From assembly GCA_009768925.2 (NCBI GenBank), contig VHIT02000018.1, forward strand, positions 62,001 through 126,000: DNA of 64,000 bases. The letters run 5' to 3'. Each line of letters starts with the position of its first letter. Position 1 is the stretch's first letter. The stretch comes from Cryptosporidium bovis. Lineage: Eukaryota; Apicomplexa; Conoidasida; Eucoccidiorida; Cryptosporidiidae. Shown one piece after another: positions 6,083-64,000 of this stretch. The position numbers and the translations under genes are program-made. Below the pieces are notes generated by a model. The model was not told the DNA's origin and ran no database searches. It saw only the letters and a list, made by a program, of their open reading frames with translations.

Positions 6083-7108
6083 ATGTATAATCAACAATTT
6101 TCGGGAGAGGAACCAATGCTTTATCAAGGCAGAGGGCCAAGCAAATCAGCTACAAACAAATTCAATGTCTCTGCATCAAGTGGAATGCAGGTAATGAACG
6201 ATGGGATAATTGACGATGAGATGTTAAATGAGAGAGGTGAGGAAATCACACCTTTGATAACTAACTTCTCATGCATAACGTTAAGAACAGGGACATTCTT
6301 GCAATGCGCAAGCTTATTGGTTCTGATCGTTCTGTATAATGTGTTCGGCAACAGTGGTCTATTTACATTTGACTTATATGGTAATGGTGGTACTTTAGCG
6401 GAGGATTTGAGTTATTATGCAGGTGTTGTTTCCGTTCTTTGTATTTATTTCATTGGAGTTCTATTTTTATCAGGGTTCCAGGAATTTATTTCGGATAATT
6501 CGAAGGCACCACTAGGTTTCAGGGCAGGTTCAAGGTTACTTAATACGGCTAATATTATACAGATTATTGTAATTGCCTTAAGAATAACGCAATTCTCGTT
6601 TACATACAGCTATTTTAATCAGAAATGGTATGGGAAGTTCAGTCAAACGAAAGGTGATTGGTGTCTGTACAACTTTGGGATAGTTTGTGAATCAATAAGC
6701 CTGATTATGTATGGTGTTGCTTTCTTTTATGTTGAATCATATTCTGATGTCGGAGTCGGTGAACAATATGCGTATTGGATGTTTTCATTATTCACATTGG
6801 CAGGATTATCAGAATTACTTATGTTGTTTACGGGGTTCGGTAGTTTCTTTATTTTGTTCTTCGCGGCGGCATTAATAGTTGCGTGTATATGGGCGTTCCA
6901 ATTTGAGCCACTACTGGAAGCTAATTCACCATTACTTTTCTCAAGAGATATAAATGCAGATGTATTGCCGAAAGAGACACCAATGGATGATGTGAGTATC
7001 GATAAAAATCAAACAGTTAACAACTTCCAGCCAAACTTTACCTATCAACTCTATGCAGGTGCAACTGGAGTTCCAAATGTTTCTAATTCATACGGATCCG
7101 AGATGTAG
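6083..7108 (+). CDS. Six-span membrane protein, GAPM-like (second of a divergent pair)
   Basis: This 341-residue protein starts at the first ATG, preceded by AAAA. It has six hydrophobic spans from about residue 75 to 295 (TGTFLQCASLLVLIVLYNVF, then LSYYAGVVSVLCIYFIGVL, and so on), a polar N-terminus of about 70 residues and a polar C-tail. The GFRAGSRLL box before span 3 and FYVESYSD after span 4 match the positions of GFRSGCKAL and FLVEVYSSD in the divergent neighbour, so the two look like old paralogues. Six spans with this size and context resemble apicomplexan GAPM proteins of the inner membrane complex. The family name is inference. An alternative is a separate Cryptosporidium-specific membrane family. 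Confidence 0.6.
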   Translation: MYNQQFSGEEPMLYQGRGPSKSATNKFNVSASSGMQVMNDGIIDDEMLNERGEEITPLITNFSCITLRTGTFLQCASLLVLIVLYNVFGNSGLFTFDLYGNGGTLAEDLSYYAGVVSVLCIYFIGVLFLSGFQEFISDNSKAPLGFRAGSRLLNTANIIQIIVIALRITQFSFTYSYFNQKWYGKFSQTKGDWCLYNFGIVCESISLIMYGVAFFYVESYSDVGVGEQYAYWMFSLFTLAGLSELLMLFTGFGSFFILFFAAALIVACIWAFQFEPLLEANSPLLFSRDINADVLPKETPMDDVSIDKNQTVNNFQPNFTYQLYAGATGVPNVSNSYGSEM

Positions 7109-59438: not shown

Positions 59439-59716
59439 TTTTAACTGGTCAGTTCGAAACTATTTCAGTACTTGCCCTTAAATGCCAAATTGGGCGCTAT
59501 TCTCTAATTCATTGAATTTTGTTCCTGAAAACCACTATGGCGCGTGCTCTTACCCCGAGAATGAATTACACTAATTTAAATTGAAATACGGAAAAAAGGA
59601 AAAAAAAGCGCTTAAACCTTTACCCTAGTTTGCGAACACTCACTCTTGTGACCTGAAAACCACTTAATTGGCCGGAGTTTATGTAAGAAGAGTGTTTTGG
59701 GTTTGTTTAGTCCTTG
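59439..59716. promoter_or_regulatory. Divergent promoter, QSOX/CNOT2
   Basis: This is 278 bases between two 5' ends. It contains TTGGGCGC at 59490-59497 and GGCGCG at 59539-59544. No gene is seen. Confidence 0.4.
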
Positions 59717-61390
59717 ATGGATACCTTGAAAAAAACGAGGGTTGGGTCTTCCTCAAATGACCATGAGAGCCAAAATGGAAGAAACGGACACTCGGGAAGT
59801 AGGTACTTCAGTAAAGGAAGAAGATCACCATCCCAGATAGGGAGTGGAAATATCATTGCTGGTGTGAGTAGCAATAATAACAATATAGGAAACAATGATA
59901 TGGGCAATAACAAGGAAAGTAATAATAATGGCAGCAATAGAAAAAGTGGGACTATTGAAACAGGTGATCTGATGAATTCTACTAGTAATGGTAGCGGAAA
60001 GAATATTGGAAATGGTAAGATTAACGTCAAGATTGGAAACGGAAATAATGGAAATAATAAAAATAATATCGGTAATATCAATGCTAATAATAAAGGTAAT
60101 GGCGTCAGTGTAAGCAGAAATATAAATTCTAATATGAATATAGGTGATAACAGAGGTAGTAACAACAGAATTAGCAGTGGTATTGGCAGTAGTAGCAGTA
60201 GTATCAGCAAAATTAGCGGTGTCAACAATAATAGGAATAGTAACAACGCTAGTATTGGAAGCAAAGGTAATAATGACATTGTCAATGTATGCAACAACAG
60301 AAATAACAGTGACAACAATATAGGTAACAGTGATATAAATAACAATATCAATAATATTTATGGTGATGACATTACCTCTGATAATAAACTGACTCTTGAG
60401 GAGATATTATTTGAAACTACTCCACAAGCTGTCCGTTATAATAGAACAAATTATGGACTTATGGGGATATTAAACGTGATTAGAATGAAGGATTCCGATT
60501 TGAACATCTTAGCATTAGGTACAGACCTAACCACATTGGGTTTGAATTTAAATTCATCAGAATGTTTGTATTTGAATTTTGATTCCCCTTGGAATACAAG
60601 TAAATCGAACCAAACTAATCCAGAATATAATGAATACATTCAAGCATTTGCAAATTCTCCACCTGCAGTTACACAAATGATTGGCTTGAAGTCTAGTTAC
60701 GTCCAAAAATTTTCTCTGGAAACTTTATTCTATATTTTTTACAATATGCCCCAAGATTTACTCCAGGGTTTCGCTTCAGTAGAGCTTTGTAATAGAGGCT
60801 GGTTATACTATCCAAGTTCTTACCTTTGGTACTGCAAGCCTCAAAAAGATGAGAGAAAAGGGGAGTGGCACATTTTTGACGTAAAGAAGTGGAAGAGAAT
60901 TCCAGTTAAAGATGTCCCTAAGGGGGAATTATTAGGCATAGATGACATACGCCCAAGTGTAGAAGAGGGAGTTAGAATACATTCAAAATGGATACAAGAA
61001 CAAAATCATATTTATCAACTTGTTCAACAACAAATGCAACAAACAAGTAGTGGTAATAATGATAACAGTAGCGGTAGCATCAATGATAATGTTGGTGTTA
61101 GTAATATCAATAATAACTGTATAGAAGTGAACAGCGGTATTAATAATAATAATAAGAATGGAGATAATAATGATAGTGTCAATGGTACTCACTTGAAGAT
61201 ATCTGAGAAACAGAAAAATAACGCCAATATAACCAACCATCTGGGGGAAACAACTATTGGGTACAATAGAAACAATAATCCACACAGAATCCCCCACCAA
61301 ACAACAATGAACCAAACGGTTCACAGTATAAATAACAATATTAATCAAAGAACGTCTCAAAGATTAAATACGGATCTTCAAAATAAATAA
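59717..61390 (+). CDS. CNOT2/NOT2 subunit with Asn-rich N-terminus
   Basis: This 557-residue protein starts at ATG 59717; a TTG just upstream is not used. Residues 40-220 and 425-500 are Asn/Ser/Gly-rich, from AAT/AGT-type codon repeats. A NOT2-family segment DLTTLGLNLNSSECLYLNF (compare LGxDLTTLGLNLN in CNOT2) precedes the NOT box at about 320-405: YVQKFSLETLFYIFYNMP, DLLQGFASVELCNRGWLY and HIFDVKKWKR. CNOT2 is a core subunit of the CCR4-NOT deadenylase, which shortens mRNA tails. The Asn-rich parts are fast-evolving low complexity. Strong match in the conserved core. Confidence 0.88.
   Translation: MDTLKKTRVGSSSNDHESQNGRNGHSGSRYFSKGRRSPSQIGSGNIIAGVSSNNNNIGNNDMGNNKESNNNGSNRKSGTIETGDLMNSTSNGSGKNIGNGKINVKIGNGNNGNNKNNIGNINANNKGNGVSVSRNINSNMNIGDNRGSNNRISSGIGSSSSSISKISGVNNNRNSNNASIGSKGNNDIVNVCNNRNNSDNNIGNSDINNNINNIYGDDITSDNKLTLEEILFETTPQAVRYNRTNYGLMGILNVIRMKDSDLNILALGTDLTTLGLNLNSSECLYLNFDSPWNTSKSNQTNPEYNEYIQAFANSPPAVTQMIGLKSSYVQKFSLETLFYIFYNMPQDLLQGFASVELCNRGWLYYPSSYLWYCKPQKDERKGEWHIFDVKKWKRIPVKDVPKGELLGIDDIRPSVEEGVRIHSKWIQEQNHIYQLVQQQMQQTSSGNNDNSSGSINDNVGVSNINNNCIEVNSGINNNNKNGDNNDSVNGTHLKISEKQKNNANITNHLGETTIGYNRNNNPHRIPHQTTMNQTVHSINNNINQRTSQRLNTDLQNK
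59833..60360 (+). repeat. Asn/Ser/Gly trinucleotide-rich low complexity in CNOT2
   Basis: AAT, AAC, AGT, GGT and related codons dominate this part and encode Asn/Ser/Gly-rich sequence. The opposite strand has a long leucine-rich open frame, which is a mirror artefact of the same composition. Confidence 0.7.
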
Positions 61391-61669
61391 ATTCACACAA
61401 TTTTGGCTAATTCCTTTTTTTCTGAGGATTAGTGCTAATTAATTAATAGATCGGCTTTATATTAAACAAGTAGCAACATAACTTTTTAATAATTGAAATT
61501 GTTATTTCCGTATAGTTGTGACAAACATTGTTTCCTTTAGTACAATTTTTTTGAAAACATTTCAAATGCTTTAAAAACCTCACCACTCTTCTACAGTCAA
61601 AAACAAGGTATATATGGGTATTTCTCTTTTTAATGGCTGAATTCAACTCCTTTGTTCTCTATTTGTTAA

Positions 61670-63757
61670 CGCACCTATAGGGGCTTTGTACCATTATGCA
61701 TCAACGAGAAGTATTTAGAGAAAGAACATTACTTGAATTCGTATAATATTGTACAAAGAAGGAATGATGAATGTTATAAATTATTATAGGGAGTATCTAC
61801 TTATTTTGACCCAACTCTATCAATTCTAAGTACAATTTCACTTGCAAATCAATTCATAGAAGTATTATCTTCTGATAGTGGCATATATTCAGTATTAATT
61901 ATCAGATGGTGTTTTATGGTTTTTTATGGAAACACAGTTTATGTTGAGGAATTATATACGGTTTTAGTCGTTACAAACGTTTTCGTAATTTAGCTGCTGA
62001 TTTAAGTACTGTAAACTTTTCTATTGAATTGTTTTCAACAATATTATCAAATCACGGAATTAATATTTCTGATATATCAGTATTATATTCCAGAAATTAT
62101 ACATTAAATGGACTATTTAGATGTAATATTCTTAATAATGGCATAGATGTTGATTTTTTTTTTGCTTTAGGAAAGCAATGGTTAGACTAAAGTCGCTTGC
62201 GTCAGAATTTGCTAGAGTTGTTTGAAAAAGACGATTCCAATATGATAAAGATAGCTGAATCCTTATTGAATTTAATATAACATTGTGGGATATAGTGAAC
62301 AATACTCAAAATCAAGTACGACACCAAATTATTCAAAAAGATTCTGTTGTTTATGTGGAGTTTATAAAGAGTTACTGAACAAGGTTCTTTCTTCTATTTC
62401 CAGGAAGGGATTCTGACGAATTTTTTCCGAGATTTCGCATTTTTAAGGACAATCCTTGGAACTGTAGACAATTTCCAGAACAGTCAATGGAAATCCTTCA
62501 ATATTGGTTTTCTAAAGTGCCTCTAAGTTATTTATGAGCAGAACAAATGCGATACACTATTTTATTGAACTCAGATTAAATATGTTTATAACGAAAACAG
62601 GAATATTAAGGACGCCTCATTTTTCCTGCACAAAGTAATACTAATATCACAATAGGTATTCTCAGACTAGTTTTTCGATCGACTTTAAATTTTTTCGAAC
62701 TTCATGGAACAAATAAGGAGTAATATAACGAATTACTCTAATTTACTACTAATATTAAACTCAATTCCTTATTTATGGTGTAGTTAATTCATCGAAGAAG
62801 TCTACTAGACATGGATTCAAACAATGGTTTCTCACAAGTACAACAAATGAAATCGGATTTCGATTTTTTTAAAGAAACACATTTAATACAAACATTTAAG
62901 GATTAATTATTCTATCAAAATTCATTGTGCAACAAAAATTCGAGATGGTGCCATCTGTTTCTTAGATTATCAGTTCTGCAGATCTGATACCAAGTTCAAG
63001 TGGAACGTCTAATTCGTTTTTATCTTTGAGAGTTAAAAGAAATTCAAACTCAAGATTCGTCAGAATGACTGTTATTTTAAAATAATTCAACAAAACAACT
63101 CAAAGCATCTTTCGTTGATAAGGGAGGAATTCAAAAAGGACTTTGAATTTTGCCTCTGAAATTTTTAATATGTATTTTGAGATGTTCAAGTATTCAAGAA
63201 CAATGGGTTATTTTTATTTGAGCCTTATTCATCTGAATATGTAACATTGCTTGTTTTTACTAAATAAAGCAATCCGGAAAAGAAAATGAGACAACTTTAC
63301 GTACCATTCTCGATAACGGTGGATCAATTTGATTCCATGATAGAAGTCATTACCGCTCCTGGAGTTTATTACCAATCTAAAATCAATTCGGACCTTTTAA
63401 AGGTAATTTCGAGCTAATTTGTGAGCATAGACTCCTGAAATTTTTTTCGGAAGAACTTTTACTTGCTTTTGCAGAAATGAAAGTTTCAATATTGATATTT
63501 TAATAGAGTCTTCTAGATGCCAGAATAGATTCACAAAAAACAGCACTACCATAATGATGCCATAGGGTGCTGCAAAGGGCTTTGATATTTCTGATTAGAG
63601 AGAGCTTTTATTTTTTACAGCGGAATCTGATATAGTCCCAACAAAAGCTTTATACAGTTAAGAATTTTTAATTGAGAGTTTTTGAATTGATCCCAACTAC
63701 ATAAACCTGTTCAATTTATTGCTACCCTCCGAGTATAAGGAAATAAAGGTTAAATAA
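61670..63757 (+). pseudogene. Decayed gene with frameshifts and stops
   Basis: No intact ORF fills this 2.1 kb, but protein-like stretches persist on the plus strand, with stops and shifts. One frame runs 61670-61978 (GFVPLCINEKYLEKE, then a stop at about 61787, then GVSTYFDPTLSILSTISLAN). After a shift near 61955 another frame runs to about 62278 (FSRYKRFRNLAADLSTVNFS, SVLYSRNYTLNGLFR) with a stop near 62188. More pieces are RDSDEFFPRFRIFKDNPW near 62406-62535, RQLYVPFSITVDQFDSMI near 63289, and a final piece NLFNLLLPSEYKEIKVK with TAA at 63755-63757. The pattern fits a gene that lost function. Family unresolved; a faint likeness to M16 (insulinase) peptidases is unproven. Confidence 0.55.
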
Positions 63758-64000
63758 ATTGTTGCCTGTTGTAATTAAAAAATCAAATGGATTTGTACAG
63801 AAACAACTGTTTTTAAACAGTTTTTTTAAATCTTAATTAATTGATATTAATATTCCCTCTTACTACTATTTTCACAAGGGATAAATAAACACGTACTTGA
63901 AATATTTAAACATGCAATTGCACTCACGTTATTTTATTGTGAATTGCGAGTGGATCCTTATGTATCCTAATTTTTGATTTATAGAGTTTTTTATAAAACG
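63758..64000. other. Right edge, no gene seen
   Basis: These 243 AT-rich bases hold no open frame or element that I can support. Confidence 0.3.

Follow-up and report, generated by a model that had tools for sequence, protein, structure and literature searches.

Pseudogene classes and the setting of the locus

Degenerate duplicates, retrocopies and integrated viral genes form a known class of pseudogenes. The locus described here is compared with a different class, the unitary pseudogenes, which it resembles in that a frame-broken coding tract lies between intact genes and no second copy was found. It differs from them in that no intact orthologue was found either among the annotated proteins searched, so that the comparison that defines the class is missing. 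Intron-containing Cryptosporidium genes are a further point of reference: here, too, the coding signal in a gap between ORFs is divided among frames, but the tract has no acceptable spliced model. Finally, Xu et al. (2020, as cited in passages of PMC10454211 and PMC11514877) described a reduced repertoire of secreted proteins in C. bovis and C. ryanae. The lineage is presumably the same and a gene would have been lost relative to the ancestor, but nothing links the tract to secreted proteins or to the families listed in that work. We consider the tract to be best read as the relic of a single-copy protein gene on the plus strand, that is, as a unitary pseudogene (probability of about 0.75).

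Positions of the tract and its neighbours refer to the window, the whole stretch of 64,000 nucleotides of C. bovis DNA that was analysed. The setting of the tract is as follows.

59717..61390, plus strand: intact CNOT2-like gene of 557 aa, upstream of the gap (ORF; Pfam PF04153)
61391..64000, no strand: portion, inside the window, of a 3,400-bp gap that lacks ATG ORFs of at least 100 aa; the gap ends at 64790
64791 onward in window numbering (L002:3791-8248): intact gene of 1,486 aa, 3' of the gap and the next gene after the relic

The CNOT2-like protein carries a NOT2_3_5_C domain (PF04153, residues 287-397, E 2.4e-18), and this conserved domain is flanked by long Asn-/Ser-rich stretches. For the downstream gene nine matches were listed in the protein database: a C. 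xiaoi protein with 95% identity, one of C. ryanae with 75%, and seven more, including that of C. parvum, with 43-46%. The C. parvum protein and others are annotated as 'rhoptry protein, possible'. These identities point to C. bovis as the most likely source species, and the 75% excludes C. ryanae. According to the preliminary description there is no intact gene in the last part of the window, and this was confirmed: beyond 61390 the ORF list holds no ATG-to-stop ORF of at least 150 aa, and the gap in fact continues outside the window as far as 64790. With gaps defined as intervals between ORFs of at least 100 aa in the first 250 kb of the contig (C13:1-250000), the gap at 61391-64790 ranks second of 95 by size (3,400 bp, median 469 bp). 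The largest one, of 3,592 bp, lies outside the window (G000:C13:51787-55378, L010-L011); its coding score of 1.8 is nearly no signal, and it may contain RNA genes or other non-coding DNA.

Coding signal and lesions in the gap

Coding potential was scored with a three-periodic Markov model that allows frame switches and was trained on ORFs of at least 200 aa from the same contig; 200 dinucleotide shuffles served as the null, at switch costs of 4 and 6. On the plus strand of the whole gap (61391-64790) the best local score was 57.7 at cost 4 and 32.0 at cost 6, against shuffle maxima of 27.5 and 24.9, and at neither cost was it matched by any of the 200 shuffles. The minus strand was matched by 57 (cost 4) and 19 (cost 6) of the 200 shuffles. 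Segment 61670-62530 scored 42.8 and 32.0 on the plus strand, again beyond all 200 shuffles at each cost, while its minus strand was matched by 13 and 43 of them. For the segment 62531-63757 taken alone, 10 and 22 of the 200 shuffles matched the plus strand, and 25 and 7 the minus strand. Since the 5' part lies beyond all shuffles and the 3' part near chance, only about 0.74 kb of the relic can be regarded as secure. Over this length the plus-strand triplet signature persists only when frame switches are allowed, and successive plus-strand frames tile 61804-62491 almost without break. A decayed plus-strand gene, as put forward in the preliminary description, is thus upheld for 61754-62491 by coding statistics, by the failure of spliced models and by the lack of a second copy. 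The proposed full extent of 2.1 kb is not secured, as the minus strand of the 3' part does as well as the plus strand.

The main rival reading takes the gap for intergenic or regulatory DNA of the usual kind, or for the gene of a non-coding RNA, with coding-like composition. The near-chance 3' half is consistent with this, as is the absence of a homologue among the proteins searched (see below), and other gaps exceed this one per kb: its score of 11.3 per kb compares with a median of 3.3 for the 43 other gaps of at least 500 bp, ten of which score higher. A plus strand beyond every shuffle next to an unremarkable minus strand argues against it, and only three of 60 gap-strand tests (30 other gaps of at least 700 bp) exceed the 40.5 that the target reaches at switch cost 5. 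Spliced models exist for two of the three gaps (90.6 and 55.2), and the third has a 256-codon stop-free frame. Moreover, no Rfam family was matched in the window, which speaks against a non-coding RNA. A non-coding origin is therefore regarded as improbable. A tRNA search, run in its bacterial setting, returned none, and the tract contains no tandem array and only short, weak repeats.

The relic and its lesions are listed below. Stops and frame switches were positioned by coding statistics and not by an orthologue.

61754..62491, plus strand: core of the decayed tract, which looks coding in one plus-strand frame after another (0 of 200 shuffles)
61787..61789, plus strand: TAG stop in frame, preceding the GVSTYFDP... 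piece
61948..62190, plus strand: longest stop-free plus frame of the tract, 80 codons, terminating at TAA 62188
61980..61992, plus strand: frame change, with the switch at 61985/61986; the open frames overlap at 61948-61993
62175..62280, plus strand: lesion cluster, either stop 62188 in one frame or two switches (62175, 62221)
62277/62278, plus strand: additional frame switch in the lesion cluster
62395..62405, plus strand: frame change into the FPGRDSDEFFPRFRIFKDNPW piece, with the switch at 62400/62401
62531..63757, plus strand: possible, unproven 3' continuation of the relic (10 and 22 of 200 shuffles)
62904, 63265, 63563, 63596, 63659 and 63683, plus strand: stops on the best path in the 3' part

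The best path through the core contains five frame switches within about 690 bp. Both stops named in the preliminary description, TAG at 61787 and TAA at 62188, were found in the sequence, together with all four peptides that it quotes. Its frame changes were recovered as well: the one it puts near 61955 lies near 61986, and more follow near 62277 and 62400. Open segments of up to about 100 codons were not seen, as the two longest stop-free plus-strand frames have 80 and 67 codons and about 110 are reached only by reading across the stop at 62188. The 3' part as far as 63757, which includes the 'tidy end', is at best weakly above chance; the best path through that end (63472-63751) scores -2.6 and runs into four in-frame stops. 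A candidate decayed signal peptide at 61614-61675 also had a negative coding score (-2.6).

A signal divided among frames might also come from an intact gene with several introns. Cryptosporidium genes can have introns, which average 104 bp in C. proliferans according to a passage of PMC13125899, and spliced genes occupy other gaps on this contig. Spliced models running from ATG to stop with GT-AG introns were computed at varied intron cost. The best model of the gap scored 19.8 with 11 introns (intron cost 4) vs 57.7 with frame switches; it exceeded ten of ten shuffles (maximum 13.1), and the reverse strand reached 8.8. At an intron cost of 6 the score was 12.5-17.9 (7-9 introns), at 8 it was 6.9 (two introns) and at 10 it was 5.6 (none). 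Three other gaps yielded models of 90.6, 55.2 and 34.9 with 2-3 introns, and comparison gap 59622-60791 retains at least 78.6 with two introns at higher intron costs. No acceptable ATG-to-stop GT-AG reading with a good coding score was obtained for the relic gap, and an intact spliced gene is considered extremely unlikely.

Searches for copies and homologues

The genome of C. bovis itself (9,064,136 bases in 43 contigs) was searched for a second copy. The DNA search returned only the tract itself, and so did the protein searches with all three plus frames, apart from a single extra match of one piece (60 residues, E 0.78). A recognisable parent gene was found by neither type of search. Of Pfam families, the three whole frames matched none; among nine pieces, ACT (E 0.21) and Glrx-like (E 0.058) appeared far under the cut-off and were rejected. 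Viral contigs contained 23 pattern stretches and no relative. These results argue against a degenerate duplicate, a retrocopy or an integrated viral gene in place of the original gene of the locus; a highly diverged parent could evade such searches, and we give this origin the same very slight chance as the spliced gene.

Two other groups of matches were discarded. Prokaryote genomes contained 143 pattern stretches and one putative relative, from an Actinomycetaceae MAG (L029; 40% over 57 aligned columns), which was discounted: the alignment runs through a stop, sits in antisense orientation inside a frame of 1,172 codons and depends on the seed word FRCNILNN. In the PDB, eight sequences, all of NKG2-D, matched the same 44 residues. 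The best had an E of 0.00088, with no single stretch passing, and the other seven had E values of 0.2-0.31; they were attributed to chance, and the frame has no Pfam lectin match. Among the literature searched, no paper title concerning the tract was found.

Piece 61948-62286 was compared, within two longer readings, with about 5.8 billion proteins. For the 695-aa reading 469 candidates of 382-1216 aa were scored, none at E <=1, and for the 300-aa reading 261 candidates of 165-525 aa, none at E <=10. As a positive control, the downstream gene retrieved its C. xiaoi, C. ryanae, C. parvum and other Cryptosporidium orthologues from the same database. By its own terms, the preliminary description would be refuted if no fragment resembled one protein family in related species; for this one piece, such a resemblance is indeed absent among annotated proteins of 165-1216 aa, a result that weighs little for distant species. 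Detection power was modelled with the downstream gene as proxy, using a 113-residue piece, 300 trials each and an assumed threshold of at least four exact words in common with the orthologue. At 0.05, 0.10, 0.15 and 0.20 substitutions per site, a C. xiaoi orthologue would be detected in 100, 100, 99 and 79% of trials, one of C. ryanae in 100, 93, 68 and 32%, and one of C. parvum in 23, 9, 6 and 1%. An intact annotated copy evolving like the neighbouring gene should therefore usually be detected in C. xiaoi, often in C. ryanae and rarely in C. parvum. These figures make an intact annotated C. xiaoi copy within the searched lengths unlikely, and leave C. ryanae uncertain.

The same result bears on the proposal that the gene is intact and that all its breaks are artefacts of sequencing or assembly. 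In favour of this, the published assemblies of C. bovis rest on Illumina data, according to passages of PMC11130048 and PMC10454211. In that case, however, C. xiaoi should also have an intact copy, and the search of annotated proteins of 165-1216 aa yielded none. In addition, five switches would have to fall within about 690 bp, yet other ORFs in the window, the longest with 1,986 codons, are unbroken. Errors as the sole cause are thus very unlikely, if slightly less so than introns.

Origin and age of the probable relic

The preferred reading as a unitary pseudogene implies that the original gene would have stood between the CNOT2-like gene and the gene for the possible rhoptry protein. Stops and frame-shifting indels, as read from the statistics, would have broken it, and the broken tract would now drift as non-coding DNA. 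We infer that the tract was once a gene and yields no protein today. The sister species C. xiaoi presumably has no intact annotated copy; therefore, the loss probably took place before C. bovis and C. xiaoi split, or else twice. A lineage-specific loss, as initially proposed, is not shown: the claim presupposes an intact orthologue, and annotated proteins of 165-1216 aa, searched with one piece, included none.

The age of the decay was approached by simulation, in which intact genes were decayed with an assumed 0.12 indels per substitution in 30 trials per level. At 0.15 substitutions per site the median simulated score was 52.6, and at 0.20 it had fallen to 29.0. With its score of 40.5 at switch cost 5, on a path with 12 switches and one stop, the target falls within the simulated 10-90% range at 0.10, 0.15 and 0.20 substitutions per site. 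This suggests that the whole tract resembles genes that have undergone moderate decay, on the order of 0.1-0.2 substitutions per site, although the levels overlap widely. The estimate would be too high if codon bias in the original gene was weak or if the 3' part is foreign to the gene. The 5' part appears less decayed than the 3' part. The loss had been called recent, which these values do not support.

It is tempting to speculate that the relic was an orphan gene of the bovis-xiaoi(-ryanae) branch, or one too fast-evolving to be recognised, that originated or diverged, and then died, within the intestinal Cryptosporidium, although we regard this as rather doubtful. If so, its decay would mark the turnover of a host-interaction gene beside a rhoptry-annotated gene. 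Should other Cryptosporidium prove to have an intact orthologue, the relic would put a date on one gene loss in the branch that infects cattle, in which, according to reviews, the set of secreted proteins is reduced. At present it is one anonymous dead gene, mainly of use to annotators, who should place no gene model here.

Two other loci emerged from the comparison. In a gap outside the window (G000:C13:214456-215472) the frame-switching score of 27.0 exceeds the best spliced model of 13.7; it is possibly a second relic, or a gene running beyond the gap. On the minus strand of L023:5381-6151 a 256-codon stop-free frame without a long ATG ORF adjoins frame 6200-6766, which begins with a hydrophobic stretch. 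This pair of frames is probably a spliced gene, the product of which looks exostosin-like by eye.
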